Positions 3,944 through 29,657 of a DNA stretch of 46,501 nucleotides are shown here, in pieces. Each line of letters begins with the position of its first letter. The first letter of the stretch is position 1. Position numbers and translations under genes: made by a program. Below the pieces are notes generated by a model. That model saw only the letters and a program-made list of their open reading frames with translations. It did no database searches and had not been told where the DNA came from. This DNA comes from a virus: IMG/VR virus record IMGVR_UViG_3300028843_000261, positions 1-46,501 of that record; one strand, given 5' to 3'.

Positions 3944-6900
3944 ATGGAATTAAATTCGCTAGTAAATGTTAAAATCGAAACTGATTCTGGACAGAAGTCT
4001 AAGAAGATCGTTGACGATCTGAAAAAGATCGAGAAGGGAAACGACAAGCTGCAAAAAGAGCTTAAAGAAACCTCAAAAGTCTCAGCAGAATCTGGCGCAA
4101 GAATCGCAAAGTCTACTGGCGAAGTTGACAAGCGTTTTAAGAAAATGGCGAAGAGCGCAAAGTCGGCAAACGACTCTATACACGGACTTTCCGGAGGAGC
4201 TAAAAGCCTAAAAACTTCTTTTAGTGGATTCGCAAAACTAGGAATCGCCTCTGCAATAGCTGCGATTGGGATAGCTGTGCTCGGAACCGCTGCAAAGTTT
4301 AAGGAGTTCGATCAGTCAATTGCGAACCTTTCTGCAATCACCGGAGCAACCGGAAAAGATCTTGAGTTTTACTCAGACAAAGCTAGGGAAATGGGAAAAG
4401 TTACAACTCTTTCCGCCTCTGAAGTTGCTCAAGCCTTCCAACTAGTGGCCAGTGCAAAGCCCGATTTGCTTTCCAGCAAAGAAGCTCTCGCCCTTGTAAC
4501 TGCTGAAGCGATAACTCTTGCGGAGGCCGCAGGAATTTCGGTTCCTGAAGCCGCAAACACTATGGCCAGTGCATTAAATCAATTTGGTGCTGAAGCTGAT
4601 CAAGCCGCGAGATTCACAAACGTCTTGGCCGCTGGCTCTAAATTCGGTGCGGCCTCAATAGCAGAAATGGGCGAGTCTTTGAAATTCGCTGGAGTTGTTT
4701 CTTCAACTTTCAAGTTAAGTTTTGAAGAAACAAATGCGGCATTGCAAATTTTTTCTACAAACGCAATCAAAGGCGGAGAAGCTGGAACACAGTTAAGAGG
4801 CGTTTTGTTGGCGCTCGAAACAAAAATGAGCGACGAGTTTAAGCCTTCTGTAGTAGGGCTAGAAAAGGCCTTGCAAAATCTTGGTGAGGCGAACTTAACT
4901 TCGGCGGAAAAAGTAAAACTGTTCGGCAATAGAAACTTGGTCGCTGGAGAAATTCTTGTAAAAAGCGTTCAGGCGATAGATGGAAACGCTTCCGCTCTTG
5001 CAACGCTTACGGAAAATATAACTGGAACTTCAATAGCACAAGAACAAGCAGCAACGAAAACAGACACTCTTGACGGAGCAATGAAGCGTCTTGGTTCTGC
5101 AGCTGAAGAGCTTTCTCTTGTTATGTCCGTTGACACCGGATTGGGAAGAGCTCTAACATTTTTGGTTGATGGACTTGCAGCTTTCGTTAACGGCATAAGT
5201 TTTGCGGTTGGCGGCGTTATCGACCTCACAAAATTCTTGTGGGATTTAAGTGGTGCTGGTGAATTCTTGTCAGAAACTTTTGGAGGAGCGGCCGTATCGT
5301 CAAAGGACTTTTTTGACAATTTAGATATAGTTCGCATTTTGGTCGGCGGCGAAATGGTAAAAGGATTCTTATTCTTAGGACAGACGGTCGAGACCGTATT
5401 TGAAGTAATATCTAACGAAGTCAACAAAGTAAAAAACAACATCCTCTCAATGATGAAAGTCTTAGTTGACTTGGCAAAAATTGGAGGGAAAGCTTTTGAT
5501 AAAATGTTTGGAACTGGCGCTGCCAAGAAAATTGAAAAGTTCGGAAAAGAAATTGATGATTTGCGCTCACCAACAAAGAGTCTTGGCGATGTTGTAAAAG
5601 ATACTGCCAAAAAATACGATGAATTGAGACTTGAGGTTGACAAGTCCACAGAAGCAGCAATTGAGTTTCGCGACGCTGGAGAAGAGGCGGCGTCAACAAC
5701 GGAGGATTTAAAAGACGAGGTCGAATTGGCCGCTGAAGAATTGGACGGTCTTTCAGACTCTCTTCAGGACGTTCTTGACAAGCTTGATGAAGAAATAGCG
5801 GCAGTAGGCAGGACAAACGAGGAGCAGAAATTATATAATGCTTTGAAAGACGCTGGAGTCGCCGCGAACACCGCAGAAGGAAGATCTATTCAAAGAAAGG
5901 TTATGGAGCTGCGAATAGAACAACAAAATCTTGAATGGATAAACGAGATAAAAGATATAAGTATTAAAAAGTCCGGAGAGGCAGAAAAAGCCGCTGTTAA
6001 GTCTGCTGAAAACTCTGCAAAGGCAGCAACAGAAGCGGCGAAGGAAACAGAAAAAGCGTGGCTGGAAGGCCGCGACGGAATGACAGACTTCTTTGTAGAC
6101 ATGGCGCAAAATGGTAGCGACGCTTTTAGCGGAATCCTTGACGGTTTTAAAAACATGCTTATAAAGATGGCTGCTCAGGCGGCATCAAACGGAATAATGC
6201 AATTATTATTCGGTGGAGGTGGCGCTGTCGGCGGGTCAATTCTTTCGCAAGGAGCAAGCTTGCTGTCCGGAGGAGGTGGTGGACTTTCATCACTGATTAG
6301 TGGAGGCTCTTCTGTAAGCTCTCTGTTTTCTGGCGGGATTTCTGGAATTGGGACTAGCATAAGTTCGCTTGGGGTGAATGGATTTAATGCACTGTCTGGA
6401 CTAGGGACAACAGGAACATCGGTCGCTCAAGGAATCGCAGGGGTCGGTCAAAATGTAAACGGTCTTTTTGGCAGCACAGGAAATCTCGGAGCCGACTTTG
6501 TAACTGGAGGAATTGCCACAGCCGGAGCGGGGATAGCTGGCAACTTTTTGGGCAATGCCGTATTTGGTGATTCTAAAAATGGCTCGACCGGAGGGTCTAT
6601 CGGGGCGGTTGTTGGAGGTGTTGTTGGCTCTATAATTCCGGTGATTGGAACCGCATTGGGAGCGGCGATAGGTGGCTTCCTTGGAAACGGAATAGGTAGC
6701 CTGATCGGTGGAAAAAGCAATAATTCTGCCATATCAGAATTTGATTTTGGAACCGGACAGATTAGTTCCAGAGGGGTCGGCGAATTCGATCAAAAAAATC
6801 TTGACGCTGTTGACTCTATAGTTCTTGCGCTAAAAGACTTTTCTGATGTACTAGGCGGATCAAGCTTTTCAGGGAAGGTCAGGGTTGGAAATGTATCTGG

Positions 6901-7810
6901 TTTTAAATTGGACGGAGAAAAGTTTGATAGCGCTTTGGAGCTTGTGGAAGCTGGAATGGACAAAATAATAAAAAGCTCTGAAGCGCTAACTCCAGCAATG
7001 AAAACTCTGGCTTTAGAGTTTGAGGGATCTGCTCAAGAGCTTTTGCCTTTCGTTTCTAATTTAAGGGCAATATCAGAGCTAACAGAGTCTAATAATGTAA
7101 AACAAATTGTTGAAGACTTTAATTCAGCAATGATAGAGTCCGAAAAAATAGCAGAGCTTTCCGGAAACTCTTTAATGAGCGTTTACAGGACTCAGCTTTC
7201 TGCCGTGAAGGATATTACTGTAGCTTATGACGGAACGGCACTTGCAACAGAAACTCTTGCCGCAGGACTACTAGCAACAAAGCAAGCTGCTGGAGCTTTG
7301 GCGATTGGAGTTTTACAGCTTCAGCAAAGCTTGGGAAATCTTCTAGAAGGCTCCGCGCAAAGCATTAGAGACTCTGTAAAAACTGAAAAAGAAGTTTTGT
7401 CAGATGCAAGAACAGAGAGGAATCAATTAAGACAGTCGTTGAGGTCTTTAACCTCTCCCGAAGAAATTCAGCAAGCGGCCACGGAAATCGCAAGGCTCAA
7501 TAGGGTTTTGTTTGATGCGTTAAGTGAAGAGCAACAATTAGTGAACGCTGAAAAATTCGCATCTTTTGTTGACCGCACAAACGAAATTGCTCAATCGCAG
7601 TTATCAAAAGTTCTTAATGAACTTAGCAGATCACAAGATAGAATTAATGCAGATGCTAGAAGAGCAATGCGAGAAACCGCAGACAAAACCGCAGCTTCAG
7701 CAAACACTTTTCTTGATGCTGCTGAATTAATCACAAGGGCAGCAAACGTCTTGGCAAACAGCTTATCGTCTGGCTCTTCATTCTCACCGAGAGTTGTAGG
7801 GGAAGTTTAA
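3944..7810 (+). CDS. tail tape measure protein
   Basis: 1288 residues, the longest gene in the window. An N-terminal basic coiled coil (about 1-75) is followed by a hydrophobic segment (about 95-115) and the conserved phage tail tape measure domain. That domain has FKEFDQSIANLSAITGATGK, AMGKVTTLSASEVAQAF-type sequence, GISVPEAANTMASALNQFG and GTQLRGVLLALE (about 115-310). A second hydrophobic patch is at about 405-430, and a glycine-rich hydrophobic stretch at about 750-925 may insert into the membrane during DNA ejection. The C-terminal part is again helical. The protein sets tail length and helps DNA entry. It has a GAGGAAAGG ribosome site and a 9-base gap after the chaperone. Confidence 0.9.
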   Translation: MELNSLVNVKIETDSGQKSKKIVDDLKKIEKGNDKLQKELKETSKVSAESGARIAKSTGEVDKRFKKMAKSAKSANDSIHGLSGGAKSLKTSFSGFAKLGIASAIAAIGIAVLGTAAKFKEFDQSIANLSAITGATGKDLEFYSDKAREMGKVTTLSASEVAQAFQLVASAKPDLLSSKEALALVTAEAITLAEAAGISVPEAANTMASALNQFGAEADQAARFTNVLAAGSKFGAASIAEMGESLKFAGVVSSTFKLSFEETNAALQIFSTNAIKGGEAGTQLRGVLLALETKMSDEFKPSVVGLEKALQNLGEANLTSAEKVKLFGNRNLVAGEILVKSVQAIDGNASALATLTENITGTSIAQEQAATKTDTLDGAMKRLGSAAEELSLVMSVDTGLGRALTFLVDGLAAFVNGISFAVGGVIDLTKFLWDLSGAGEFLSETFGGAAVSSKDFFDNLDIVRILVGGEMVKGFLFLGQTVETVFEVISNEVNKVKNNILSMMKVLVDLAKIGGKAFDKMFGTGAAKKIEKFGKEIDDLRSPTKSLGDVVKDTAKKYDELRLEVDKSTEAAIEFRDAGEEAASTTEDLKDEVELAAEELDGLSDSLQDVLDKLDEEIAAVGRTNEEQKLYNALKDAGVAANTAEGRSIQRKVMELRIEQQNLEWINEIKDISIKKSGEAEKAAVKSAENSAKAATEAAKETEKAWLEGRDGMTDFFVDMAQNGSDAFSGILDGFKNMLIKMAAQAASNGIMQLLFGGGGAVGGSILSQGASLLSGGGGGLSSLISGGSSVSSLFSGGISGIGTSISSLGVNGFNALSGLGTTGTSVAQGIAGVGQNVNGLFGSTGNLGADFVTGGIATAGAGIAGNFLGNAVFGDSKNGSTGGSIGAVVGGVVGSIIPVIGTALGAAIGGFLGNGIGSLIGGKSNNSAISEFDFGTGQISSRGVGEFDQKNLDAVDSIVLALKDFSDVLGGSSFSGKVRVGNVSGFKLDGEKFDSALELVEAGMDKIIKSSEALTPAMKTLALEFEGSAQELLPFVSNLRAISELTESNNVKQIVEDFNSAMIESEKIAELSGNSLMSVYRTQLSAVKDITVAYDGTALATETLAAGLLATKQAAGALAIGVLQLQQSLGNLLEGSAQSIRDSVKTEKEVLSDARTERNQLRQSLRSLTSPEEIQQAATEIARLNRVLFDALSEEQQLVNAEKFASFVDRTNEIAQSQLSKVLNELSRSQDRINADARRAMRETADKTAASANTFLDAAELITRAANVLANSLSSGSSFSPRVVGEV

Positions 7811-7811
7811 A

Positions 7812-8150
7812 ATGGCAATCGTTTTCCCACTTAGCACTTATCGTCTTTCTCCAAAGACCGCATTTGAAGACGTAGACTCAATATCTAGAAGCGAATTCAG
7901 TGATGGGTCTATGGCGATTAGAGAGATCGGAGCCTCTGACTACAGGATAATACAATGCAAGTTTGTGGAAATGTATTTGCAGGAGGCTGACGACTTTGCT
8001 CAGTATGTTAGAGACAACAAAGCACAGGAATTTGATTTTGTTTATCTTGCAAAAACTTATCGCGGTTATATTTGGTCTGCTCCAAAAACAACTTTTGAAT
8101 CTGGGAATGTAGCACTAGTTAGCTTTTCGTTCCGTGGAGTGTTGACGTGA
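7812..8150 (+). CDS. minor tail protein, lambda gpM-like (distal tail)
   Basis: 112 residues, one base after the tape measure stop. Pattern and position match gpM-type small tail-tip proteins: an N-terminal FPLSTYRLSP, a central IQCKFVEMYLQEADDFAQYVRDN helix (the usual integrate-over-a-field-of-data region of these proteins), and a C-terminal strand ending in a short VSFSFRG. Such proteins form the first ring below the tube and start tip assembly. No catalytic motif is visible. Confidence 0.6.
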   Translation: MAIVFPLSTYRLSPKTAFEDVDSISRSEFSDGSMAIREIGASDYRIIQCKFVEMYLQEADDFAQYVRDNKAQEFDFVYLAKTYRGYIWSAPKTTFESGNVALVSFSFRGVLT

Positions 8151-8722
8151 GTCTTTACGATACTCTTGGCGACTTGACAGCGCAACAGATTTCAATACTG
8201 TCAAGCGGAGCGACAAAGCCAATAATGATAATGAAAATACTCCACGGAGCAAGCGAAGAATATATTTCTTTCAATGGCAATTTGGAATTCGATTCTCAAA
8301 GCTACATCGGTGGCCAAGCCTCAATAAGCGGAATGAAGCTTCATCAGTCTGCCAGCATAGAGTTAAACGCAACTCCTGTTAGAATTGGAGAAGTACAGTC
8401 TTCAAGATGGAGGAACGGACACTGCAAGATATATTTTATAATTGCTCCAATTGGAACCCCAATGACGTTTAGTCTATCAGACGCAATAGTTGTCCTTGAT
8501 GGAAAAATAGATTCTTCAAATTACGATGACAAAAACTCTTCTATAAATATGAAAATTCTTCATAGAGCTTTGTCTGGAGCGCTGATCCCTCCTTTTAGAT
8601 TCAATCAGTTTTGCAATCACATGCCTACAACTGGCGATAATTTAAATTGGGGAACTGGAGCTTTACAAAATGTAGATTCACCTAGAGAATTGGTATTAGG
8701 AACTCAAGGAGGGGTCAGATAA
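8147..8722 (+). CDS. minor tail-tip protein, gpL/DUF2163-like position
   Basis: 191 residues, GTG start overlapping the previous stop by 4 bases (GTGA). The sequence is beta-rich (IMIMKILHGASEEYISFNG, DAIVVLDGKIDSS) and ends with a small cysteine-containing motif in FRFNQFCNHMPTTGDNL. Lambda gpL-like hub-adaptor proteins have C-terminal cysteines for a metal or Fe-S site, but only one cysteine is visible here, so such a site is unlikely. Gene order (after a gpM-like gene, before the hub) is the main support for a tail-tip adaptor role. Confidence 0.5.
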   Translation: MSLYDTLGDLTAQQISILSSGATKPIMIMKILHGASEEYISFNGNLEFDSQSYIGGQASISGMKLHQSASIELNATPVRIGEVQSSRWRNGHCKIYFIIAPIGTPMTFSLSDAIVVLDGKIDSSNYDDKNSSINMKILHRALSGALIPPFRFNQFCNHMPTTGDNLNWGTGALQNVDSPRELVLGTQGGVR

Positions 8723-9963
8723 TGGCTGCTGGCGCTATAACTCCAGATCCAAGATTTGCAGAATTCATTCGCAGACAAAAGGCTGAATCAGCATTGGCTC
8801 AGGAAGCTTTGTTTAATATCGTAAATTCAAGACCCTCGCTGAGGAACATAAACTCGTATTCAGCGCCAAGAATGGTTTCGTCCGCGGTCACTGGCGATGG
8901 AGGTGATGTTCCATTAATTTACGGAACACAACCAATACAGGGACATATAATTGTTACTCCGACAGTTTCTGGAGCTTACAGATATGTTGCTATAGGATGG
9001 TGCTTGGGACAAGTGGGGTCGGTAGAAAGGATTTTCATAAATGACGAGCCTATATCCGCTGGAGTTCAGGTTAGAAATTATACTGGATCAAAAACACAAC
9101 TCGTAGACTCTTGGCTTGCTGCCGTAATTCCAAGCTATACGGATGATTGTGTAATAGATTATCGAGGTGACAGAATAGGGATTTGCTATTCGGTTTTCAA
9201 AATACAAACTTCAGTAATTGACGGAAAAGCACTTAGCTTCAAGGCTATAATCAATGGGTCAATAGTTACTGACCCAGACCTTGTAGCGTCAACAGATCCT
9301 TATGCCGATGATAATATCGCTGAAGTAGATTTTGAATCCGGTGGAACAGATTCTTCTTCGAATTATAATCTGTCTCTTACTGGAAATGCAGTTGTAGACT
9401 CTAGTGGTCTTAGGACACTTGGAACCACCGATTCTGTTTCTGAGCTTGGGACTTCAGGAGCAGTGTGGTCTCTTGTTGGTAACGCGCACTCCTCGTACGG
9501 ACTTTTGTATGCTGGATCAGAGTCCTTGAGAACAATAGACTCCGGAGACTGTGCTGTTTCTGACATAGCAATAATTCCAGCAAGTGTGGATGCTGTCGTT
9601 GATATTAAAGTTGTTATAGGGGAATTCTCTGGACCCCTTGCTGGCGCAGACAAAGATTATTTGATGTCTATAGGAACTGGAGCGAACGAGCTTTCGATCT
9701 ATATTAAAGGTAGATATCTTGCCTTTTCATACAATGGAAGTGAGTCTGTTGGTTCTACGGAGATGCTTGCAGACCAGTCTTATGATGTTAAGTTTGAAAT
9801 CATCGGAGATCTGTTTAGCATAAAGATGGACACGATATTACAGGCAAGCAACACTCACATAGGGCACTCTGTTCAGCAGAGCAGAGTTTGTATAATGGCA
9901 CTGGATGATGGTTCGTTTTCTGACAGTCTGATAGGTCATTTCGACAACTTTTCAATAGGATGA
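8722..9963 (+). CDS. tail tip hub protein, N-terminal half (gpJ-like) with lectin-like C-terminus
   Basis: 413 residues, sharing one base with the previous stop. Residues about 45-200 have the gpJ N-terminal pattern: VPLIYGTQPIQGHII, then YRYVAIGWCLGQVGSVERIFIN, then a phage-hub type YTGSKTQLVDSWL and a domain ending at FKAIINGSIVTDP. Residues about 205-413 are a beta-rich domain like a concanavalin A/LamG lectin domain (SVSELGTSGAVWSL to LIGHFDNFSIG). In a normal gpJ the next domain would continue the hub, but here the protein ends. The expected remainder starts in a separate gene at 12659. See findings for the split-hub idea. Confidence 0.6.
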   Translation: MAAGAITPDPRFAEFIRRQKAESALAQEALFNIVNSRPSLRNINSYSAPRMVSSAVTGDGGDVPLIYGTQPIQGHIIVTPTVSGAYRYVAIGWCLGQVGSVERIFINDEPISAGVQVRNYTGSKTQLVDSWLAAVIPSYTDDCVIDYRGDRIGICYSVFKIQTSVIDGKALSFKAIINGSIVTDPDLVASTDPYADDNIAEVDFESGGTDSSSNYNLSLTGNAVVDSSGLRTLGTTDSVSELGTSGAVWSLVGNAHSSYGLLYAGSESLRTIDSGDCAVSDIAIIPASVDAVVDIKVVIGEFSGPLAGADKDYLMSIGTGANELSIYIKGRYLAFSYNGSESVGSTEMLADQSYDVKFEIIGDLFSIKMDTILQASNTHIGHSVQQSRVCIMALDDGSFSDSLIGHFDNFSIG

Positions 9964-9967
9964 GATC

Positions 9968-11056
9968 ATGAGCGGAAGAAAAATAACGGAACTGCCAGCG
10001 CTACCAATTATTTCTGGTGATGAATTGATTGTTGTTGTAGACCCGTTGGACATAACAGATTCCCCCGCCGGAAGCTCCAAGCGCCTTACGGTTTCACAAG
10101 TGTCCGGAGCCTCAACAAAAAAGTTTCGATACTGGAGACTGATAAACGCAAGAGCCAATGCAAACACCGCAAACACAGATCCGACTGGTGAATTCACAGT
10201 AGCGCTGGATGAAATAGATTTAATGGAGCTGGACCAGTCTGGGGATTATGTTGCCGTTCAAACGCTTTCAACCTTGACAGGAACATCACAAGACGTTGGC
10301 AATCCCCCTTCTATATTAGCGAATGGCGAGGTTAATCCAATAGCGGCGGCTTGCCTATGGGATGCGACAACAGTTTCCAATCCTGCATTTTTTCTTATGT
10401 GGGATTTTGGTGCAGATCCAAGAGCGATAGTTTCAATTAGACAATATGCAGCTCTTGGAACAATAGCAACGGATTCTGGATCTTTCAAGTGCTTTGAAAT
10501 TGAAGCCAGTGATGATGCAATAACTTGGCAGAGAAAATTTTATGTCGGTAGTTTTCTTGAAGTCCTTGGAGGAAACGAGTGGTCTGAATTTTACTTTTTG
10601 GCGAATATAGATCTTCTTTCTGCACTTCCCTCGAATGGATCTTCAGGAAAAGTTTTAACAAGAACAGGAACCACAAATAAAGATCTTGTTTGGCAAACTC
10701 CTTCTGGGGGTTCTGAGTGGAGTAGAATTTTAACAAAGAAAATATCAAGCTTTTCCGCTTCGGCCGGAGAATTTTATTACTGCGACTGCGATGCCGCAGA
10801 AGAAGACATAACAATAACTCTTCCTTCCTCTCCGTCTGTAGGTGATCGAGTTGGATATGTTAAAACTTCTTTTAGCTTTAACTATCAGGTTATAATAGAC
10901 GGAGGAACAAAAGTTGTTGCAGACATAATGACTTCCGGAGCAACGACAACAAATGTTGGTTTGGATTTTGGCAGTTTCTATCAGGGCTTTTCTATGATCT
11001 TTTTGGGAAACGAGTGGGTTTTTTACGATAGCACAATGATCCCTGTCGCTGGATAA
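9968..11056 (+). CDS. tail-associated adhesin with discoidin-like carbohydrate-binding domain
   Basis: 362 residues. The first about 45 residues (KITELPALPIISGDELIVVVD) form a short module commonly found at the start of phage tail fibre proteins and shared with the next gene, so it is probably the attachment point to the tail tip. Residues about 48-200 look like an F5/8 type C (discoidin, galactose-binding-like) domain: KFRYWRLINARAN at the start, then FFLMWDFGADPRAIVSIRQY and CFEIEASDDAITWQ, which match the WDFG..I..IRQY and F.IEAS.D...W pattern. The C-terminal about 110 residues are beta-rich, with ITITLPSSPSVGDRVGYV. Likely role: binding a surface sugar of the host. The target is unknown. 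Confidence 0.6.
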   Translation: MSGRKITELPALPIISGDELIVVVDPLDITDSPAGSSKRLTVSQVSGASTKKFRYWRLINARANANTANTDPTGEFTVALDEIDLMELDQSGDYVAVQTLSTLTGTSQDVGNPPSILANGEVNPIAAACLWDATTVSNPAFFLMWDFGADPRAIVSIRQYAALGTIATDSGSFKCFEIEASDDAITWQRKFYVGSFLEVLGGNEWSEFYFLANIDLLSALPSNGSSGKVLTRTGTTNKDLVWQTPSGGSEWSRILTKKISSFSASAGEFYYCDCDAAEEDITITLPSSPSVGDRVGYVKTSFSFNYQVIIDGGTKVVADIMTSGATTTNVGLDFGSFYQGFSMIFLGNEWVFYDSTMIPVAG

Positions 11057-11081
11057 AATAAAATTAAAGAGGTAGAGAAAA

Positions 11082-12050
11082 ATGACTGACACAAAATTAA
11101 CAGGACTTCCGGTTTTAGCAACGATAGATGATGCTGATCTGATTTATGTTGTTGACGCAAGCGATACAACTGACGATCCAGCAGGAACATCAAAACAAAT
11201 AACAAAGGCGAATTTAGTTTCCGGCCTGTCTGGAGGACTTGGACAACCATCAAAAGTTGCATACACTCTCGGTCCAACTGGCGACTTCACAACGATAAAA
11301 GAAGCTATTGATTATTTAACAGAGCATCCAGAAAAGAAGTCTGGAACCGATGGCGATGTTATAATTGCGATGGAGGCGAACTATACGGAAGCGGTCAACA
11401 ATTTTGGTATAGTTCTTCGCACAAATTATAATGTGGTTCTTGACAGCTCTTCGGTTTCTCCAGTCGGAATGATGTGGGAAACTGCAATAAGCCAAATAAA
11501 CATTTTTGCAGAATGCACCGGCAGACACTTCGAGTTCCGAGGATCTTTCGCTGGAGTAGCTATTGTAAATTTCATTCTTTCTGCTTCTACAGAAATGCTA
11601 ATGGATGGGGTAGAGTTCGGGACAAACTTCTCTTTAACACTGGACAACTCAGAAGCATACATTTCAAAAACAACAGGAACAATTAAAAAGGCTTCTGTAA
11701 TAAACAGATCTGTGCTTTCTCTATATGATGTTTCTCTTGCGAACATAAAAGTAAAAAAGGACTCAATATTAAGGACTCTTGAAGCCAAGACGAAATCGCC
11801 AAAGGGATCTGTTCCAAATCTTGTTGGATCGGGAACCGCAATAATACTAGATGAAGGGTCTTTTTTATATGCTAGAGGGCTTGACATAAACGGATACTCA
11901 ATCGGAATACTAATTAAAAACAATAGTCGATTAATAGAGTATGGAGCCTCGACAATTCAATTTACTGGCGTTGCAACCCCTGTTAGTGGACCAGCGGTAA
12001 ACACTCAAGACAACTCTGGAGCTGGATGGTATAACGGAGCTTCGATATGA
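11082..12050 (+). CDS. tail-associated adhesin / tailspike-like protein (beta-helix-like)
   Basis: 322 residues. The N-terminal about 45 residues (TKLTGLPVLATIDDADLIYVVD) are similar to those of the preceding adhesin and probably attach it to the same tail-tip partner. The rest begins with a PTGDFTTIKEAIDYL segment, the usual opening of right-handed beta-helix (pectin lyase-like) tailspikes. It continues with short repeated strands, with no obvious acidic catalytic cluster in the part I can read. It may therefore bind rather than cut a polysaccharide. The last 4 bases overlap the start of the sulfotransferase gene (ATGATGG region), suggesting co-translation. Confidence 0.55.
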   Translation: MTDTKLTGLPVLATIDDADLIYVVDASDTTDDPAGTSKQITKANLVSGLSGGLGQPSKVAYTLGPTGDFTTIKEAIDYLTEHPEKKSGTDGDVIIAMEANYTEAVNNFGIVLRTNYNVVLDSSSVSPVGMMWETAISQINIFAECTGRHFEFRGSFAGVAIVNFILSASTEMLMDGVEFGTNFSLTLDNSEAYISKTTGTIKKASVINRSVLSLYDVSLANIKVKKDSILRTLEAKTKSPKGSVPNLVGSGTAIILDEGSFLYARGLDINGYSIGILIKNNSRLIEYGASTIQFTGVATPVSGPAVNTQDNSGAGWYNGASI

Positions 12051-12643
12051 TGGTAATATTGGACAACAAAGTAGCTTTTTATCATCTTCCAAGAACAGGA
12101 GGGACTCTTTTAAAGCATATCGCTAGACAGCATGACGTAAAATTATTTTCCCCTGACAACCTCATAACAAAAGAAGATAGATACTACAATAAGGAGATAG
12201 ATCCAAGCTTATACAAGTTCGGATTTGTTAGAAATCCGTGGGAGTGGTGCGTTTCCTTTTCAACATTAAGAGTGTCCGTTGAGCATAGGAGAGGATATCC
12301 GGACAATAGAAAAAAGATCGTTCATAAGATAAAAACCCACATGGCTTCGGAAATGGTGAAATACTTTCACGGCTATTACGGGACTGTCGAAAACCGAATG
12401 AAAGTCGACTGGCTTGGCGACGTTTCCGGACGAGAAGAAGTTTTTGAAATAATTTCTGAAATACTTGGAAAAGATTTGATAGGAACTCTGAAAAAGACAC
12501 CTCCAGTAAACGGCGTTTTAACAACTGAAAAATTCAAGGATGGATTCTGGAAGTTTATATATAGCCTAGAAGAAGGTCTTAAAGAGCATGTTGAGAAAGA
12601 ATGCAAACCGATAATAGACGAATTTGGATACACTTTCGACTAA
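12047..12643 (+). CDS. sulfotransferase family protein
   Basis: 198 residues. Two classic PAPS-binding motifs are visible: a 5'-phosphosulfate loop in FYHLPRTGGTLLKHI (residues about 11-25, the HIPKTGGT pattern) and a 3'-phosphate motif in FGFVRNPWEWCVSF (about 58-71, the FVRNPxxRxxS pattern). This fits the Golgi/bacterial carbohydrate sulfotransferase family, which moves sulfate from PAPS to a hydroxyl or amine, usually on a sugar. The WEWCV in place of the usual basic residue after RNP is a small deviation. It overlaps the upstream adhesin gene by 4 bases and lies inside the split hub cassette, so a glycan or adhesin in the tail region is the likeliest target (inference). Confidence 0.75.
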   Translation: MMVILDNKVAFYHLPRTGGTLLKHIARQHDVKLFSPDNLITKEDRYYNKEIDPSLYKFGFVRNPWEWCVSFSTLRVSVEHRRGYPDNRKKIVHKIKTHMASEMVKYFHGYYGTVENRMKVDWLGDVSGREEVFEIISEILGKDLIGTLKKTPPVNGVLTTEKFKDGFWKFIYSLEEGLKEHVEKECKPIIDEFGYTFD

Positions 12644-12658
12644 TAACGAGATATAAAA

Positions 12659-14476
12659 ATGTCATTATTATTAAATGATGGTCTCGGCTCCGTACTTCTC
12701 CAAGACGGAGATGGACTTCTAGAAACGCAGGCCGGAGCCGCGCCAATAACAAAACTTTCTTTCCTTGATTTTTCTAGGACGTTCTCTCATGCAAAAGCCT
12801 CACCGGCTGGCGTGGTTTCTGATTTTGGATTCAATGTAATTTCCGCAGAGTTGAGACTAAAACATGCAGAGCTTGTCACAAGAGGAACGATTCTAGTAAA
12901 TTCAACTATTGAAAAAAGTATTTGGGTCGAGCGGGTCGCAGACACTTTGAAAATATATCTTTCTTCTGACGGTATTAGCTGGGACATTGCAAACGGTGTT
13001 GTCATATATAGCGGTCTGACGATATCGGAATACTATTTGACGATTGAGCATTCAAACGGAGCAATAGTATTCTTTTTTAATGGGATGGAAGTTTTTACGA
13101 TCCTCACCAACTTATACATCTATGACCCAACAGATAAGTCTTGGCACGTCGGGTCTTTCTCTGGCGGCTGGGAGTCTTCTCTAGAAGTGTTTTCGTGGCG
13201 CATTAATATTGGAAATATAAGATACGGTGGAGATCATTCCGCGATTGCAATTCCCTATGCCGATTCCGATTCGTATTCAGCTGGAAATTTGTTTTCAAAT
13301 AATTTTGCCCTGATGATGGGCGATATTGCCTCAAACAAGCTGTATGGACTAGGCGCTCAGCTTGATGGGCTTGTGGAGTCAAAAGACTGGTGTGACATTC
13401 CGTTGGAGGACAATCCTCTCATACCACACGGACACGGAGGAGTAGTCTTCAACAGACAAACAAGAACAGAAAGTGTTCTAAACGTGATGTCGGAGTATGC
13501 GGCATGTATCTGGCAACCATATAAAGAAAAAGTATTATTGTCGCCAGACAAAGAATTGTCCGCAGATTTGCCTTTTGGAAAAGACGTTTTGACAAACGGT
13601 GATTTTAATTCTAATACTGGCTGGACAGAAGGAGGGTCTTGGACAATATCTTCTGGCGTCGCGACCGTAAATAATGTTTCTGGCTTTGACGAAATACTTT
13701 CTTCAACAATTGTTACAGAAAACTCCGTTGACTACTCTTGCATGATAGTAATTCAATCAGTGTCTGGAGCAGGGATAAAAATACTAATTGGCGGCGTAGA
13801 AATTATGCCTCTTGAAATAGCCTCTGGAGAGTTTAGACTTCCATACGAGGCTATTGGTGCTTCAAGCACAATAGAAATAATTGCTCCAGATGGCGTTTCT
13901 GCCGTGATATCTTCGATGGCTGTGAGGCGGCTTGCGTGGTTACAGGAAAGGTGGATTGGCTCTTTAGACATAGGAGGTCCTTCTGATCGCGGACTACCAA
14001 ATAGCATTGTTGTTTCACATAAAGAAAGCACTACTTCTAGCGCGAACTGGAAAGAAAGCGAAACCGAAATTGGACATCCTCTTGCGCTTTCAGGACAGAT
14101 TCCATTAATAAAATCTAATTTAAATATGTATGGAATGCCAACAATTCTTCAAGCACAAAACAGAGGTATAAGAAAAATATCAAGAGGCATAGATCGAGTT
14201 GATATTAAATTTGATGTTTATTCCGAAGGGATAATGTTTAGAGTTGGCACAATAATTCAGCTAAAGGACGATGTCAGAGGCGTAAACATTTTGCTTTGGG
14301 TTTCTGAAATAACGATGGTAGACTATGGTGTTTACAGAGTTAAAGGAATTAGGTACGACAAAAGTCATTTCACTTTAAGTACAACATTGAGCTACGACTT
14401 AATTTTAAACGAAGACGCCTTCCCATTAATTCTCGAAGATGGCGGCTTTGCATTTTTGGAATCATCCAACTTTTAA
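12659..14476 (+). CDS. tail tip hub protein, C-terminal half (gpJ-like) with lectin-like N-terminus
   Basis: 605 residues. Residues about 1-30 carry an LLLNDG/LLQDGDGLL motif of tail proteins. Residues about 35-180 are a beta-rich lectin-like domain. From about 190 the sequence follows the hub pattern: AGNLFSNNFALMMGDIASNKLYGLGAQ, KDWCDIPLEDNP, GGVVFNRQTRTESVLNVMSEYAACIW and KEKVLLSPDKE. These match the domain that follows the N-terminal domain in gpJ-like proteins (NPxYGLG, then C, then the Vln..m...A....y motif). The C-terminus ends FPLILEDGGFAFLE. No start region typical of an intact gpJ is present, which supports a two-part hub with the gene at 8722-9963. Confidence 0.55.
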   Translation: MSLLLNDGLGSVLLQDGDGLLETQAGAAPITKLSFLDFSRTFSHAKASPAGVVSDFGFNVISAELRLKHAELVTRGTILVNSTIEKSIWVERVADTLKIYLSSDGISWDIANGVVIYSGLTISEYYLTIEHSNGAIVFFFNGMEVFTILTNLYIYDPTDKSWHVGSFSGGWESSLEVFSWRINIGNIRYGGDHSAIAIPYADSDSYSAGNLFSNNFALMMGDIASNKLYGLGAQLDGLVESKDWCDIPLEDNPLIPHGHGGVVFNRQTRTESVLNVMSEYAACIWQPYKEKVLLSPDKELSADLPFGKDVLTNGDFNSNTGWTEGGSWTISSGVATVNNVSGFDEILSSTIVTENSVDYSCMIVIQSVSGAGIKILIGGVEIMPLEIASGEFRLPYEAIGASSTIEIIAPDGVSAVISSMAVRRLAWLQERWIGSLDIGGPSDRGLPNSIVVSHKESTTSSANWKESETEIGHPLALSGQIPLIKSNLNMYGMPTILQAQNRGIRKISRGIDRVDIKFDVYSEGIMFRVGTIIQLKDDVRGVNILLWVSEITMVDYGVYRVKGIRYDKSHFTLSTTLSYDLILNEDAFPLILEDGGFAFLESSNF

Positions 14477-14489
14477 ACAGGACTCTATT

Positions 14490-14732
14490 ATGAAAAACCT
14501 CGCACTTTTAATTTTGCTTATTTCGGTTTCAGGATGCTCTCGGTATCGAGCATACGTGGGACAGTATGGACAAGAAACTTCAGACGCTGCTCTGCACGAC
14601 GCTTTGTGGACAATATGTAAAGCCGTTCCAGTAGGAGCCATTAAGCGACGCTTCGATACATTGGAGCGACTTATACAGTACAACGCGATGTGTCGAGAGA
14701 TGGAACAAGTCCCGATATACGAGGAATTATAA
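14490..14732 (+). CDS. small phage lipoprotein
   Basis: 80 residues. The chosen ATG at 14490 gives a clean lipoprotein signal: MKNLALLILLISVSGC, with the lipobox cysteine at residue 16. An earlier in-frame ATG at 14439 would add a 17-residue stretch overlapping the hub gene and spoil this signal, so it is rejected. The rest is soluble, with CKAVPVGAIKRRF, which I recall from small lipoproteins near phage lysis genes. It could be an outer-membrane spanin component (o-spanin-like), because it lies between tail and endolysin genes, but it lacks the proline-rich character of Rz1. Its stop overlaps the next start (TAATG). Confidence 0.55.
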   Translation: MKNLALLILLISVSGCSRYRAYVGQYGQETSDAALHDALWTICKAVPVGAIKRRFDTLERLIQYNAMCREMEQVPIYEEL

Positions 14733-15181
14733 TGAAATATTCGGACGGATATAAGTATCAGCTAAAAGAAGGAAAGGCGTTTCCAACTCTGATAAAACCC
14801 ACGAGAAGACTAGTCACGGAATTCATAATTTTAGAACTAAGTGGATTACTCATAATAAAAAGCGGATATGCGTGGGATGGTCCGAGCGGACCGACAATCG
14901 ACACACCGTATTTTATTGTCGGCTCGGTCGCTCATGACGCTTTATATCAGCTTATGAGGATGGACTTGCTAGACCACAAACGATGGCGCGAAGCCGATTA
15001 CATACTTCGTCGGATCATCCTGTCGTTACTTGATGCCTCTCGCGGAAGTGATTCTTACGCTCGAAAGCTGTCACGCGCCGTATGGAAAATTAGAATGCCG
15101 ATAGCAATGGCTGGTTTAAAGTTAGCGAAAGGACGAGCCGCCTTACCGAGTCACCGCAAAAAAATATACGAGATACTGTAA
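14732..15181 (+). CDS. DUF1353-family phage protein
   Basis: 149 residues from the ATG at 14732, which shares a base with the preceding stop; an upstream in-frame ATG at 14690 lies within the lipoprotein gene. YAWDGPSGPTIDTP and SVAHDALYQLMR are the typical DUF1353 signature segments. Family members are common in phages near lysis genes, but their role is not established. The C-terminal part is basic and helical. The gene runs directly into the endolysin (shared base at 15181). Confidence 0.7.
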   Translation: MKYSDGYKYQLKEGKAFPTLIKPTRRLVTEFIILELSGLLIIKSGYAWDGPSGPTIDTPYFIVGSVAHDALYQLMRMDLLDHKRWREADYILRRIILSLLDASRGSDSYARKLSRAVWKIRMPIAMAGLKLAKGRAALPSHRKKIYEIL

Positions 15182-19731: not shown

Positions 19732-22617
19732 TTATTTTTCTATTATCGACTCGTCGAGCTTCATTATTTGTTTTATAACTACATATCTGCTATTGTATTT
19801 TATTGTACCTTTCACCAAATACCAATCTTTGTCAACTGTACCTTCCTCTGCTATTTCTCTACCTTTTTCTTCATATTCAAATCTGCCAATTGTTCCCATT
19901 ATGCTATCGGTATCGTCTTCTAGCTTTATCGCAAGCTCCAAAGTATGATCTTCTAAAACTTTACCATTTCTTTTTTGCAAGTTCACATATTCATTTAAGT
20001 CTCTAACGTTTTTATTCATCAATCTCCCAATAAATAAATAATCTCCCTTTTCTTGTACGTCATTTATAAGAGATGGTGGAGCAGACAAACCGTATTTTTG
20101 ATGATTGTCATACAAGTCTCCCCAGTGATGTTTACACGGGAACAAAATGTTAAATGGAGTTTCTGGATGAAGCATTTTTGTAATTATTCCTGGAGGAAGA
20201 CTTTCACCTGTCTCTCTTGATTTTATTATTTTGTTTGCTGCTGCTGGTCCTATTCCGTGAATATTCAACAAACCACCAACGACAATACCCTTGCTATTTA
20301 CAGACCACTTTTTTAGTGATTCGTCTGGATCTATAGAAACATATTTTATTTTTTCATTTACTGTTATGTCTCTAAGAAGTTTTATTGCACTGTCGTCATC
20401 TTTTGCATGATTTAAATTTGCAACAAGAAACTCTTTTGGATGTCTTGCTTTTATATGAGCACACCAATATGAAATTATTGCATACGCAACAGCATGACTT
20501 CTGTTAAACGCATACGCTCCTCCATTTTCTATTTCGCCCCATAAAAAGTCTGCTTCTTCTTCTGAATATTCTCTTTCTTTTGCCCCTTTGACGAATTTTT
20601 CTTTGTATCTGTTGAAATATTCTTTTCCCATGGACTTGCTTAGAGCTTTTCTTAGTGCGTTTACATCAGTCCAATTCATTCCTCCTATTTCTCTACAGAT
20701 TTTTAGAATTTGTTCTTGATAAACAACAATTCCAAATGTATCTTTTGTTATTTTTTTGTGTAGGTTTCCATAAAAAACAGGCGTGTCTTCTCCTAGTCTG
20801 TATTTTACATATCTTGCTGCTCCGCCACTATACAAAGCTCCAGGACGAGCAAGAGATGTTATCGCTGTTATATCTTCAAAAGAATCTATTCCCATTTTTT
20901 TTGTTAATTGTCCTAGAGAATATCCTTCAAATTGAAATATGCCGCTAAGTCTCATTTTATTAAAAACTTTAAATGTTTTCTTAGATTCTAGTGGCAATTT
21001 ATAATACTCCTCGTATTTCATTCCTATCATGTCAGCACATTCTTCAAGGATTGACAAAGTTCTTAGACCCAAAACATCTATCTTTAACAAGCCTAGATAC
21101 TCCGATGTTTTTTTGTCAACCATCGCTGTCCCATCTCTAACATTTACTCCAGAGAAAACATCAATGTCTTCGTTGCAAACAATTATTCCTGCTGCATGTA
21201 CACTGCTATGTCTTGGATGATTCTCAATTTTTGAGACCTCGTTCATTGCTGGATATTTTTTTATAAATTCTTTTCCTATACTCGTTGTTTTAAAAGTATC
21301 TTTCATTCTCATTGCAGCTCTTGCATCGCCGCCAGATCTTTCTATGATTGCATTTTTTACCGCATCGGTTTCATACGGTGGAATCCCCAAAGACTTTGCA
21401 AATTCTCCAATTGCTATTTTTGGTTTCATGGTTGAAATATTAGCTATTTGTCTTACTTTTTCTTGTCCGTATTGTTCCATAAGTTGTTTGATGACTAGGT
21501 TTCTTTTAGTGTCTGGGAAATCTATATCTATGTCAGGCAGGTCGCTCCTGTTTATATCAATAAACCTCTCAAAAAGAAGGTCAAACTTTATTGGATCCAT
21601 ACATTCTGTTATTCCAATCAAATAACAAACAAGACTACCTCCAGAGCTTCCTCTTGCAGGACCGACTAGCATTTTTGTTTTTGCTTTTTTTATCATGTCT
21701 GCAACTATAAGAAAATAGTCCTGATATCCTTTTTCAAGGATAAGTTTTATTTCCCTGTCATATCTAGATTTATATTCCCCTTTATTTTTTATGTCTATCC
21801 CTAATTTTTTCGCACCAATTTTGCAAAGAAACTCAATCTTCTCCGGACCTTTGTATTTTACTAGATCCGCCTTTTTCAGTTGGATGTTGCAGCATTGTTT
21901 GGCTATTTTGTGTGTGTTTTTTATTGCTGATTTTGCTTCAGGATTATTTTTATATAATTCAAACCATTCCTTCGTTGATAAAATATGTTGTGGATATGTT
22001 TGATGACAATTGTCTCTGTAAGTAAATATTTCGTAAACGTCCCTGTCTTCTTCTTTTGGATAGAAATTATTTATGATTGCAACTTTTGGAATTCCTTTAT
22101 ATTCTTTAAACATTTTTGGCGTTGTTGTTGTCAATGCTATATAGTCTATTCTTTTTGGCTTATCAAAGTTTTCTGCAATCACAATTACATTATCGCTCAG
22201 TGCATAAATGTCTTTGAGACTTATGTTTCCACGGTAATAAAAATTCTCGTAAAATATTTTTACCAAATTATATATTTCAGAAAGACCATCTGTGTTTTTT
22301 GCTATTAAAATATATTCACATCCGAATTGTCCTCTTGGTTTTACCCTTTCGGTAGCATCTTTCACGACTGTTAGTCTGACAGAATATATTGGTTTTATGT
22401 TTTCTATTTTCTCTCTGCCAAATTGTGATGCAGCGGTTTTGTAACTGCTGAAATCGTTTAATCTTTGCTCTATTGTAGGATGAGAGTGGGTTACTCCCAA
22501 GTCTGAAACGCCTATATATCCAGTTTCAGATCCATATTTTAGAATTTCGTCAAGATGTCCATATACTTTTTTGAAAGAGTATCCTGTCCTTAGTGCTAAG
22601 TGTACTATTTTTTTCAT
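19732..22617 (-). CDS. dnaE: DNA polymerase III alpha subunit (C-family replicative polymerase)
   Basis: 961 residues from the ATG at 22617, which overlaps the exonuclease stop (ATGA) and has GGAGGT 8 bases upstream; an upstream ATG at 22650 lies within that gene and is not preferred. Features: an N-terminal PHP domain (KIVHLALRTGYSF, lacking the second metal His of HLRVHS-type proteins), the palm motif GPARGSSGGSLV and FERFIDINRSDLPDIDIDFPD (DxD pair near residues 362-366), a third palm Asp in LLKIDVLGLRT (about 514), and a helix-hairpin-helix (IHGIGPAAANKI, about 785). It is shorter than bacterial DnaE (about 1160) and seems to lack the tau-binding end. It would carry out phage DNA synthesis. 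Confidence 0.93.
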   Translation of the reverse strand: MKKIVHLALRTGYSFKKVYGHLDEILKYGSETGYIGVSDLGVTHSHPTIEQRLNDFSSYKTAASQFGREKIENIKPIYSVRLTVVKDATERVKPRGQFGCEYILIAKNTDGLSEIYNLVKIFYENFYYRGNISLKDIYALSDNVIVIAENFDKPKRIDYIALTTTTPKMFKEYKGIPKVAIINNFYPKEEDRDVYEIFTYRDNCHQTYPQHILSTKEWFELYKNNPEAKSAIKNTHKIAKQCCNIQLKKADLVKYKGPEKIEFLCKIGAKKLGIDIKNKGEYKSRYDREIKLILEKGYQDYFLIVADMIKKAKTKMLVGPARGSSGGSLVCYLIGITECMDPIKFDLLFERFIDINRSDLPDIDIDFPDTKRNLVIKQLMEQYGQEKVRQIANISTMKPKIAIGEFAKSLGIPPYETDAVKNAIIERSGGDARAAMRMKDTFKTTSIGKEFIKKYPAMNEVSKIENHPRHSSVHAAGIIVCNEDIDVFSGVNVRDGTAMVDKKTSEYLGLLKIDVLGLRTLSILEECADMIGMKYEEYYKLPLESKKTFKVFNKMRLSGIFQFEGYSLGQLTKKMGIDSFEDITAITSLARPGALYSGGAARYVKYRLGEDTPVFYGNLHKKITKDTFGIVVYQEQILKICREIGGMNWTDVNALRKALSKSMGKEYFNRYKEKFVKGAKEREYSEEEADFLWGEIENGGAYAFNRSHAVAYAIISYWCAHIKARHPKEFLVANLNHAKDDDSAIKLLRDITVNEKIKYVSIDPDESLKKWSVNSKGIVVGGLLNIHGIGPAAANKIIKSRETGESLPPGIITKMLHPETPFNILFPCKHHWGDLYDNHQKYGLSAPPSLINDVQEKGDYLFIGRLMNKNVRDLNEYVNLQKRNGKVLEDHTLELAIKLEDDTDSIMGTIGRFEYEEKGREIAEEGTVDKDWYLVKGTIKYNSRYVVIKQIMKLDESIIEK

Positions 22618-23159
22618 GCTAGTCCGACCTCCAAAAGCCATTTGTAACATTCTATTGTTGCCATAACATCAGCTTTCGCTCTATGAGCTCCCTCTATTTT
22701 TCTTTCAGTGGCAAGCTCATATAAATATCCAAGACGAAGCCTTTTATTTTCAACAGGATGAGACAACTCAACAGTACATTTTGCATTTTTTGGCCAATTA
22801 AATTTGTTTTCTAGTCCTAGTCTTCTTGATTCAAATTTTATCATGTCTAAATCAAAATTTACGTTATGACCTAACGAGTATTCTGCTCCTTTGAAAAATT
22901 TTGAAAGCTTTTTAAATTTATCTGCAAAAGTATTTTGATATTCAAGCATCTCGTCTGTTATTCCTGTTATTCTAATTATATGTTCGGGAACAGGAATTGG
23001 TATTTTCAAAAGCGAGTGAAACTCGTCAACAACTTTAAATTTTTTATTTATCCTAACGCAATATATTTCGGTCATGAATGGCTGTAGGCTCAAGTCTGTC
23101 AAGTTTGGTCTAAGAAGACCCGTTGTTTCTGTATCAAAACATATTCCGTCTCTTTTCAT
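22614..23159 (-). CDS. DnaQ-like 3'-5' exonuclease (proofreading)
   Basis: 181 residues, DEDDh family. Exo I is CFDTETTGLL (D9, E11), Exo II is LGHNVNFDLDMIK, and Exo III is the GAHRAKADVMA end with H and D. It should correct errors of the adjacent Pol III alpha. The two genes overlap by 4 bases, ATG inside TGA, so they are probably made together in equal amounts. A separate epsilon-like gene immediately upstream of alpha suggests a phage-encoded polymerase-exonuclease pair. Confidence 0.85.
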   Translation of the reverse strand: MKRDGICFDTETTGLLRPNLTDLSLQPFMTEIYCVRINKKFKVVDEFHSLLKIPIPVPEHIIRITGITDEMLEYQNTFADKFKKLSKFFKGAEYSLGHNVNFDLDMIKFESRRLGLENKFNWPKNAKCTVELSHPVENKRLRLGYLYELATERKIEGAHRAKADVMATIECYKWLLEVGLA

Positions 23160-23941: not shown

Positions 23942-24700
23942 TTATGCTCCGTATTCAATATCACATCCTGATAAATAAAAGTGCCTTTCTTTTTTGGACA
24001 AAAGAAAAGCTATGAATTCCGCTAGAATTTCGGGGTCTGTTTCAACTCCGGTCGTAAGTGCGTTTGCTTGATACTGTTTTGAAAATTCAGCGGTCCATCC
24101 GCGCTTTTCGGGAATAATAGCGTCAACGAACTTGCTCATTCCTGTTCCGTCCAGTTTGTTGGGGCTAACAGAAAAGACAGTGATGTTTTTTTCACGTGTC
24201 AGTTCATGCGCCATTTGTTTTGTTATCATTTTTGCAGCGGCCTTGCTTGCATTGTATGCAAGAGAACATCTCATTGGAACGCGAGCAGCATTTGAAACAA
24301 TATTTAAAATGGTTCCTCCTGCACGACTAATTTGCGGGAGTAGCATTTGAGAAATTATAAATGTTGCTCTGGCATTCACGTTCATCAAGCTGTCAAATGT
24401 TTCTACGTCGGCTTCATGAAACCACTGATTCATGTTCAGGCCAGCGCAATTTATTAAGCAATAAATTTTACCCAATCCTTCAAGCTCCAAACAACTTTCC
24501 ACGGTATCGGTTTCGTCATTTAAATCGCATTCAACAATATCGTCCAAGTGTTCTGGCAAAATTTCTAAAAATGTAGAGCTAGAATGAGCCAGCGCAATTA
24601 TATGAAAAGTCGGGTCGGCTTTCTTTAGTTGTCTTGCGACCATGTATCCAAGATTGTCTGGCTCGCTGCATCCAGTTATAACAATATTAATATTTCTCAT
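23942..24700 (-). CDS. short-chain dehydrogenase/reductase (SDR)
   Basis: 252 residues from ATG 24700, which has GGAGAC a few bases upstream; an in-frame ATG at 24739 is less likely. The Rossmann start is NIVITGCSEPDNLGYMVA (the GxxxGxG loop is altered), followed by INCAG, a serine in NIVSNAAR and the YNASK catalytic motif (Y and K of the active site). An NAD(P)-dependent oxidoreductase is expected. Phage SDRs are rare; this one leads the leftward nucleotide-metabolism operon, so it may act on a nucleotide sugar or a modified base. Substrate unknown. Confidence 0.75.
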   Translation of the reverse strand: MRNINIVITGCSEPDNLGYMVARQLKKADPTFHIIALAHSSSTFLEILPEHLDDIVECDLNDETDTVESCLELEGLGKIYCLINCAGLNMNQWFHEADVETFDSLMNVNARATFIISQMLLPQISRAGGTILNIVSNAARVPMRCSLAYNASKAAAKMITKQMAHELTREKNITVFSVSPNKLDGTGMSKFVDAIIPEKRGWTAEFSKQYQANALTTGVETDPEILAEFIAFLLSKKERHFYLSGCDIEYGA

Positions 24701-24741
24701 TTTGTCTCCGTTTTGTTTTAGTAATTGTTGGACGAACATCT

Positions 24742-28448: not shown

Positions 28449-29657
28449 TTATTGCACTCCTTTGAATTGAAATCCGCAAACAGCTTTTTCCTCTTTGCTC
28501 CAGTCTGCGAAATATCCCAGTTCAATATCTTCAATAGACCAATCACACTGCTCCTTCATGTCACTTGCATCAATCATGACTCTAGTAGAAAGCAACTTGT
28601 TGAGACGATGGCTTGATATTTTATTTCTTATCTCAATTCCCCATGCTAATACTTCTGGATCAACAAGCTTTTCTTCGACCGCTGGACTATAGTCCATAAA
28701 GATCGTGCCTAAACGGAAGCGATCCTTTGTAGCTCCGTCAAGAGCAACACGTCCGTGATACATCTGGTCGGCTCCATCGCCGAAAGTATTTGCTGCTCCT
28801 ACCGCAACAAAATCTTTGTGCTTGGACACTTTTGTTTTCTTGTATCGTTGAGGCAGAAAGAAATGGCTGTTTGCAAGAGCCTGATTCAAAAACACAAGAA
28901 CGTTCGCGTCACTGTTGTCCATCTCGTCAAACAAGAATACTCCGCCGTTTTCGTATATATCCAGGAACACGGACATGACATGATCAAACCGACCGTCCTT
29001 GCCTATTGGCAAAAGCCATCCTGCAAATGAAGACTCGCTAACTCCGGCTGAGCATGACTGGGATCCATAGCGCAAGCCAATAGCATCTGCTAATTGTTCT
29101 GCGACATGAGTCTTGCCGCATCCACTTGGACCGACAAGGAGAATGTTTTTCCTTGCTTCCGCCAGCTGAACCATCCTTGGAAACAATTCGTGGACGACTC
29201 CTTTAATCGCCTTTGGCTTTTTGTTGCCGATTTTTATTGCGGTCACATTAAACTTTTTCGACTCCCTTTCTATGGCAGCTGTCATACGCTCCTTTACTGT
29301 GGAAACAAAGTCATGCTGAATTTTCCGCAATTCGTTTTCGCGTTTTTCTATTTTATCGGCACATGATTTCTCAATTCCTTTCAATGCGCTGTCTTCAATT
29401 GACTTGACGTGAAAGTCAATTATGTGAGACGCATCGTTTACCGGAATAACTTTTTGAATAGCGCCAGTGGAAGTTTTGTGCAGGACTACAGAATCATAAG
29501 CCTTATCAAACTCCTCCCGATCTGCTTTTTCGCAGACATGAAGTTGTCTTTTAAGGTCTGCAATTTTTCCTTTTTGATCGTCAAGTTTAATTCCAAGGTA
29601 GTCCAGCATCATGCGGACTTGTGAACGTTCAAGTTCTAAAGTTATAGAGTTTTTCAT
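28449..29657 (-). CDS. MoxR-type AAA+ ATPase
   Basis: 402 residues. A long N-terminal helical/coiled-coil region (about 1-140) precedes the AAA+ core. Motifs are Walker A GPSGCGKT (176-183), Walker B GVFLFDEMDNSD (239-250), sensor 1 VAVGAANTFGDG (284-295) and GATKDRF with the arginine finger (308-314). The AANTFG...Y.GR..LD.A.KDRF string matches the CbbQ/NorQ/MoxR group of ATP-driven remodelers. It probably acts with the VWA-like protein encoded directly after it. Its leader has the ACATAAACAGG motif. Confidence 0.8.
   Translation of the reverse strand: MKNSITLELERSQVRMMLDYLGIKLDDQKGKIADLKRQLHVCEKADREEFDKAYDSVVLHKTSTGAIQKVIPVNDASHIIDFHVKSIEDSALKGIEKSCADKIEKRENELRKIQHDFVSTVKERMTAAIERESKKFNVTAIKIGNKKPKAIKGVVHELFPRMVQLAEARKNILLVGPSGCGKTHVAEQLADAIGLRYGSQSCSAGVSESSFAGWLLPIGKDGRFDHVMSVFLDIYENGGVFLFDEMDNSDANVLVFLNQALANSHFFLPQRYKKTKVSKHKDFVAVGAANTFGDGADQMYHGRVALDGATKDRFRLGTIFMDYSPAVEEKLVDPEVLAWGIEIRNKISSHRLNKLLSTRVMIDASDMKEQCDWSIEDIELGYFADWSKEEKAVCGFQFKGVQ

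Follow-up and report, generated by a model that had tools for sequence, protein, structure and literature searches.

The window analysed here is the whole of IMG/VR virus record IMGVR_UViG_3300028843_000261, a 46.5 kb (46,501 nt) fragment that begins among neck genes and carries neck and tail genes at its left end. Downstream of the tape measure gene lies a dense array of tail-tip genes, two of which, designated a and b, encode successive parts of a siphophage tail hub and are separated by three others (c, d and e). The tail channel ends in the hub, which must open when the receptor is bound. Our analysis indicates that the window probably encodes a hub of the gpJ, TipJ, gene transfer agent (GTA) megatron or T5 pb3 type that is made as several polypeptides. 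The two hub genes have the following features.

8722–9963, + strand: gene a, first hub fragment with a C-terminal module (hub profiles)
8908–9279, + strand: hub-homologous part of a (residues 63–186), the adhesin-like / HDII-insertion region (hhalign, GTA_megatron, PHROG)
9289–9960, + strand: C-terminal module of a (residues 190–413), fold not confirmed (no family match)
12659–14476, + strand: gene b, second hub fragment, with an N-terminal module, HDII to HDIV and an internal insert (hub profiles, PHROG, NCBIfam, structural model)
12659–13243, + strand: N-terminal module of b (residues 1–195), fold not confirmed (no family match)
13253–13456, + strand: start of the HDII–HDIV region in b (residues 199–266; hub columns 147–211, E = 0.007)
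13574–13933, + strand: insert within the HDII–HDIV region of b (residues 306–425; MAFFT gap in 17 hubs, phrog_30593)
14135–14386, + strand: HDIII/HDIV part of b (residues 493–576; phrog_469, TipJ-related model, profile, structural model)

The first-pass annotation, made by reading the sequence, had seen an N-terminal hub pattern at 8722–9963, and profile comparisons place this resemblance well above chance. Residues 63–186 of a align with columns 13–148 of the hub profile (hhalign E = 3e-8). A profile of 13 hubs compared with residues 36–200 gave E = 4e-8 and a score of 59, the best of 40 shuffled sequences reaching 18. When the 259 open reading frames (ORFs) of the window were searched by hmmsearch with a hidden Markov model (HMM) of the N-terminal hub part, a ranked first (E = 4.7e-7; next 0.72). 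Family libraries agreed: a matches GTA_megatron in NCBIfam (7.4e-6) and the PHROG hub families phrog_4271 (1.9e-4) and phrog_5616 (0.004), and the best sub-threshold matches of its N-terminal region include the hub genes of Vibrio phage 83AMN and Microcystis phage Mwe-JY26. The match stops at a motif just before the conserved hub stretch ‘SNNxAL...D’. Plain BLAST of a found nothing. As candidate identities for a, gpI and gpK were dropped, neither giving a match.

Gene b, which was said to continue the hub pattern, does so. The 13-hub profile left the evidence for b marginal; a profile of 24 more diverse hubs was more informative. An HMM of the C-terminal hub part from these 24 matched b as the sole ORF in the window (E = 1.7e-5; next 1.2), in two collinear stretches. 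Compared separately with the 24-hub profile, residues 199–266 gave 8e-5 and residues 493–576, which align with hub columns 326–410, gave 6e-5; each scored above all 60 of 60 shuffles. The PHROG hub family phrog_469 matches b (9e-4), and its single NCBIfam match is the TipJ-related model (0.0045). An AlphaFold2 (AF2) model of the hub part of b, built from an alignment with 17 hub relatives, reached a predicted local distance difference test score (pLDDT) of 60–80 over HDIV only; from the single sequence the mean pLDDT was 30. The HDIV model superimposes on lambda gpJ with a Z score of 10.3 (3.0 Å across 149 residues), and also matches the hubs of T1 (Z 9.8), RcGTA (Z 9.3), JBD30 and T5. Because the AF2 alignment contained known hubs, the model match is supporting and not independent evidence.

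Alignment of b with 17 hubs by MAFFT revealed an additional domain at residues 306–425. This insert matches phrog_30593 (7.3e-5), a family of unknown function, and may be carbohydrate-binding, judging by the style of its sequence only. A motif of the ‘LLLxDGxxLLE’ kind is similar at both ends of b, at 12659–12735 (SLLLNDGLGSVLLQDGDGLLET) and at 14395–14473 (DLILNEDAFPLILEDGGFAFLES).

The two matches are complementary and collinear, as the first reading had proposed: a ends at hub column 148 and b starts at column 147, so that any overlap or gap lies within two columns, and each is the top ORF in the window for its own half of the hub. Compared with known hubs, the family profile for the first part aligns with residues 250–444 of T5 pb3 and 4–200 of the RcGTA megatron, and that for the second part with residues 458–716 of T5 pb3 and 261–608 of lambda gpJ. 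Therefore, the break falls between adjacent stretches of a single pb3 chain. In a single-gene gpJ or megatron the two regions share one polypeptide, whereas here they occupy two ORFs 2.7 kb apart and in different frames; the locus is therefore not filed as gpJ. We conclude that the split is real, with the adhesin-like / HDII-insertion region and HDII–HDIV in separate genes. Neither a nor b matches an unrelated family, and no other ORF among the 259 of this fragment matches the hub, so the two findings that might have overturned the original reading did not appear.

The genes surrounding and separating the two hub fragments are listed below.

3944–7810, + strand: tape measure protein, encoded immediately before the tail-tip genes (Pfam PhageMin_Tail, 3.7e-24; many PHROG tape measure matches)
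7812–8150, + strand: protein of 112 amino acids (aa), identity not established; in the place of lambda gpM / distal tail protein, by position only
8147–8722, + strand: HDI-type hub partner, in the DUF2163 / gpL / GTA g13 position (hhalign, 4e-5)
9968–11056, + strand: gene c, fibre-type protein with an N-terminal virion anchor (similarity to d; phrog_31104)
11082–12050, + strand: gene d, same N-terminal anchor, probable appendage (Cellulophaga phage match; phrog_29955)
12047–12643, + strand: gene e, probable sulfotransferase (phrog_3347; PRTGGT and RNP motifs)

After the tape measure gene, the operon runs 7812 (112 aa), 8147 (191 aa), a (413 aa), c, d, e and b (605 aa), with intergenic distances of -4 to +25 bases and a strong Shine-Dalgarno sequence ahead of a. 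The ORF list and this spacing bear out the original placement of the two ORFs, their strand and the three co-directional genes between them. The packing is unbroken over both joints, on the a side and on the b side of the c-d-e block, and G+C content is even (0.39–0.43) throughout the tail-tip region. These observations bear on whether the arrangement could be an assembly chimera, in which a wrong join had brought together two pieces from different phages or from a single intact hub gene. The record is of metagenomic origin, and the sole second contig in IMG/VR (26.7 kb), which is 100% identical in the stretches compared, may come from the same reads. However, the continuous packing and even composition argue against misjoining, and neither ORF runs into the frame of the other at a break; we regard a chimera as very improbable. 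Still harder to credit is that an intron, an intein or trans-splicing restores the hub to one chain. A long stretch does divide the gene, but each of the two parts starts and stops with codons of its own, the gap is occupied by three unrelated ORFs, and no Rfam match was found in 7800–15000. For lack of an Rfam match there, an intron or intein between a and b was dropped.

An HDI domain adjoining both hub parts is supplied by the product of 8147. Against a profile of 14 homologues that precede known hubs, it gave an hhalign E of 4e-5 and a score of 35.9 (shuffle maximum, 18.8). It contains only two cysteines, and thus lacks the four cysteines for a 4Fe-4S cluster of the gpL / GTA g13 type. The 7812 product had no profile match, and its candidacy as gpM was dropped for that reason. 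Complementarity, collinearity and operon structure support co-assembly of the products of a, b and 8147, and a and b may thus come together in the virion as one hub. In the arrangement we envisage, HDI from 8147, the adhesin-like / HDII-insertion region from a, and HDII–HDIV from b would build one trimeric hub.

Several observations weigh against a working hub assembled from these chains. Gene a lacks the hydrophobic N-terminal iris/penetration helix present in 12 of the 13 hubs compared (maximum 19-residue hydropathy of 0.12 in a vs 1.6–2.5 in those 12), and no substitute for the helix that might have preceded the hub match, at 8722–8907, was identified among the neighbouring genes. Gene b stops about 30 residues past HDIV, with no fibronectin domains or central fibre, and gave no match to Pfam Ig_J or Phage_Tail_Tip. 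With the smaller profile, its individual matches are weak (E = 0.007 and 0.03). Single-sequence and BLAST searches with a and b against phages, PDB and genome contigs returned no relatives, and no relative with the same or an intact arrangement was found.

The missing helix and fibre, together with the fragmentary record, could mean that this is a degenerate or duplicated hub, with a and b as remnants or accessory copies and a complete hub encoded outside the 46.5 kb fragment. We think this unlikely. The tail-tip ORFs are all long, open and tightly packed, they stand downstream of the tape measure gene at the usual hub site, each half lacks exactly what the other supplies, and a second hub is not seen in the window. 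A hub made from several polypeptides, with a and b as its parts, remains our preferred reading.

The position of the break is informative. In RcGTA, a peripheral domain lies between the adhesin-like domain (residues 47–229) and the central domain (745–984) of the hub (PMC7296036), and in R4C the same regions are separated by a mannanase-like peripheral domain that itself contains an inserted carbohydrate-binding domain (PMC10276861). At the position of the a/b break, the L062 hub has 344 extra residues and the R5C hub has an inserted TIM barrel. The peripheral domains of RcGTA and R4C and the long inserts in these relatives therefore place the break at a site that accepts large outward domains, in agreement with the earlier suggestion that it falls where interruption is tolerated. 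The chain break would then lie on the outer face, where related hubs carry an outward ‘peripheral’ domain, so that the conserved core could close non-covalently around it, leaving the chain ends to bear accessory modules.

Those ends were originally described as lectin-like domains. No profile confirms this: the C-terminal module of a and the N-terminal module of b have no family in Pfam, PHROG or NCBIfam, and a small LamG profile scored them within the shuffle range. The term lectin-like is thus a guess for both. A LamG domain in the R5C hub is a weak match. That the two ends are halves of one split lectin domain was considered and dropped, as each seems to be its own module and they are mutually dissimilar. 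The end modules may face outwards and bind glycans.

The three intervening genes had been called an adhesin/sulfotransferase cassette, a description supported in part by two products that share a virion-protein anchor and weakly supported for the enzyme. Genes c and d have an N-terminal segment in common (E = 1e-9). The C-terminal part of c matches phrog_31104 and, weakly, a tail fibre family. The anchor of d resembles structural proteins from the Cellulophaga phages phi13:1 and phiST (47% identity across 49 aa; E = 2e-6), and d also matches the appendage family phrog_29955 (7.7e-4). The shared segment, with its resemblance to Cellulophaga structural proteins, points to virion-attached fibre-type proteins, and c and d may attach to the hub. 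They were the sole fibre-like genes noticed in the window, where the other ORFs were not fully surveyed for such genes. The e product matches phrog_3347, galactose-3-O-sulfotransferase, weakly (1.3e-3); the PRTGGT and RNP motifs were read directly from its sequence, and Pfam and NCBIfam gave no match. Together, c and d, as anchored fibre-type proteins, and e, as a probable sulfotransferase, could serve as host-contact genes of the tail tip.

Division of the hub among genes is already known, and the a/b split is a new variant of it. Lambda gpL, gpI and gpJ together equal T5 pb3, with other genes between, and in RcGTA the HDII insertion is divided between g13 and g15 (PMC10721106). The window resembles lambda in spreading hub domains over several genes with others between, and in dividing them at the HDII-insertion region; b matches HDII–HDIV of gpJ. 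The lambda break, however, separates HDI from the rest of the HDII insertion, and the window hub has a second, later break; lambda gpJ also continues after HDIV into fibronectin type III (FNIII) repeats and a central fibre, both absent from b. The megatron (g15) and g13 of RcGTA and roseophage R4C likewise place HDI in a separate upstream gene, followed by an adhesin-like region and an HDII–HDIV central region, with extra domains bearing carbohydrate-binding features at the very point of the a/b break. In those systems the adhesin-like, peripheral and central regions form one chain, whereas here the chain ends at the peripheral position and three genes intervene, and no iris helix or fibre-binding domain is seen in the window hub. 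T5 pb3 likewise has both hub regions, adjacent to each other, but is a single polypeptide that includes HDI, plug and FNIII, unlike the multi-gene hub of the window. Hubs of the Queuovirinae type (e.g., Vibrio phage 83AMN) were the best profile source for a and have the same order of HDI protein then hub; unlike a and b, theirs is an intact gene with a hydrophobic N-terminus and immunoglobulin-like and fibre domains.

We surveyed other loci for comparable divisions. Both hub regions lay within one ORF in 98 other fetched loci, and none had a split of the a/b type. Of 391 phage records with hubs of this type, 363 matched 80% or more of the hub-core query at a single place. Neither sample was drawn up to detect splits, and many of the 98 are closely related to one pelagiphage. 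From both counts we take the fused hub to be the common state. In Stenotrophomonas phage A1432 (Bradleyvirinae; L006:11104-13830), the hub is divided between gp50 (76 aa) and gp48 (769 aa), with an overlapping gene of 66 aa between them, and the two products align with successive parts of the intact hub of Pan1. As in the window, two genes encode the hub, in A1432 with a small gene between; unlike the window, the A1432 break follows the first 76 residues, away from the peripheral-domain site, and no adhesin genes lie between. In IMG/VR, the only relative of a and b was the identical contig. When the major tail protein, the tape measure protein and the two genes of 112 and 191 aa were used to look for tail-tip relatives, related tails were found, none with this tip. 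The comparison with relatives carrying one intact gene, which the first-pass annotation had proposed, thus yielded none of this lineage from tail protein, tape measure or tip-gene searches.

The same surveys bear on how the arrangement arose. Genes a and b could descend from a long-standing multi-gene hub, comparable to lambda L/I/J or GTA 13/14/15, that no cassette ever interrupted, with c, d and e accumulating in the gap. This account concerns origin only and is compatible with co-assembly. Hub domains spread over genes with others between are on record (PMC10721106), a small gene divides the Bradleyvirinae hub at a different point, and both a and b end in a module that seems complete. Set against this are the 98 fused loci with none split and the 363 of 391 records with the core in one place. 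We consider such an ancestry quite possible, though short of an even chance. The claim that a ready-made cassette was placed inside an intact hub gene is not borne out by the data: a and b each end in what appears to be a module of their own, so that fission of the gene or stepwise accretion would account for the findings just as well. The arrangement may have arisen when the c-d-e block was inserted, or by a fission after which genes were gained.

If both chains are used, the natural break here would show that the link between the adhesin-like and central regions need not be covalent, and the peripheral-domain site would stand out as one able to house whole genes. T5 has these hub domains fused, lambda and GTA have them split once, and the window hub is split a second time; this pattern is relevant to the way in which tail tips acquire and shed parts for receptor binding. 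A further proposal, which we hold as doubtful, is that the site acts as a gene-level docking point, where a two-chain hub would allow host-recognition genes (anchored adhesins and a glycan-modifying enzyme) to be swapped whole, and not as inserted domains. In two HDI-type tail-tip proteins, those of RcXuper (L084) and of an IMG/VR relative of L046 (L088), a LamG domain lies within the cysteine-bearing part, which is another insertion point for domains of the sugar-binding type.

Elsewhere in the record, the major tail protein is 33–36% identical to those of Nanhaivirus phages, and its tape measure counterpart is similar to the tape measure proteins of phiKO2 and an Aeromonas phage. On the minus strand, the 972 aa product of 19732–22650 looks, by reading, to be of the DNA polymerase III alpha type (PHP plus polymerase). 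Two probable auxiliary genes lie on the same strand: 23942–24739 has a FabG-like reductase match (phrog_3142, 9e-37), and 28449–29657 encodes an ATPase whose match is to a family annotated as porphyrin biosynthesis (phrog_249, 1e-46).

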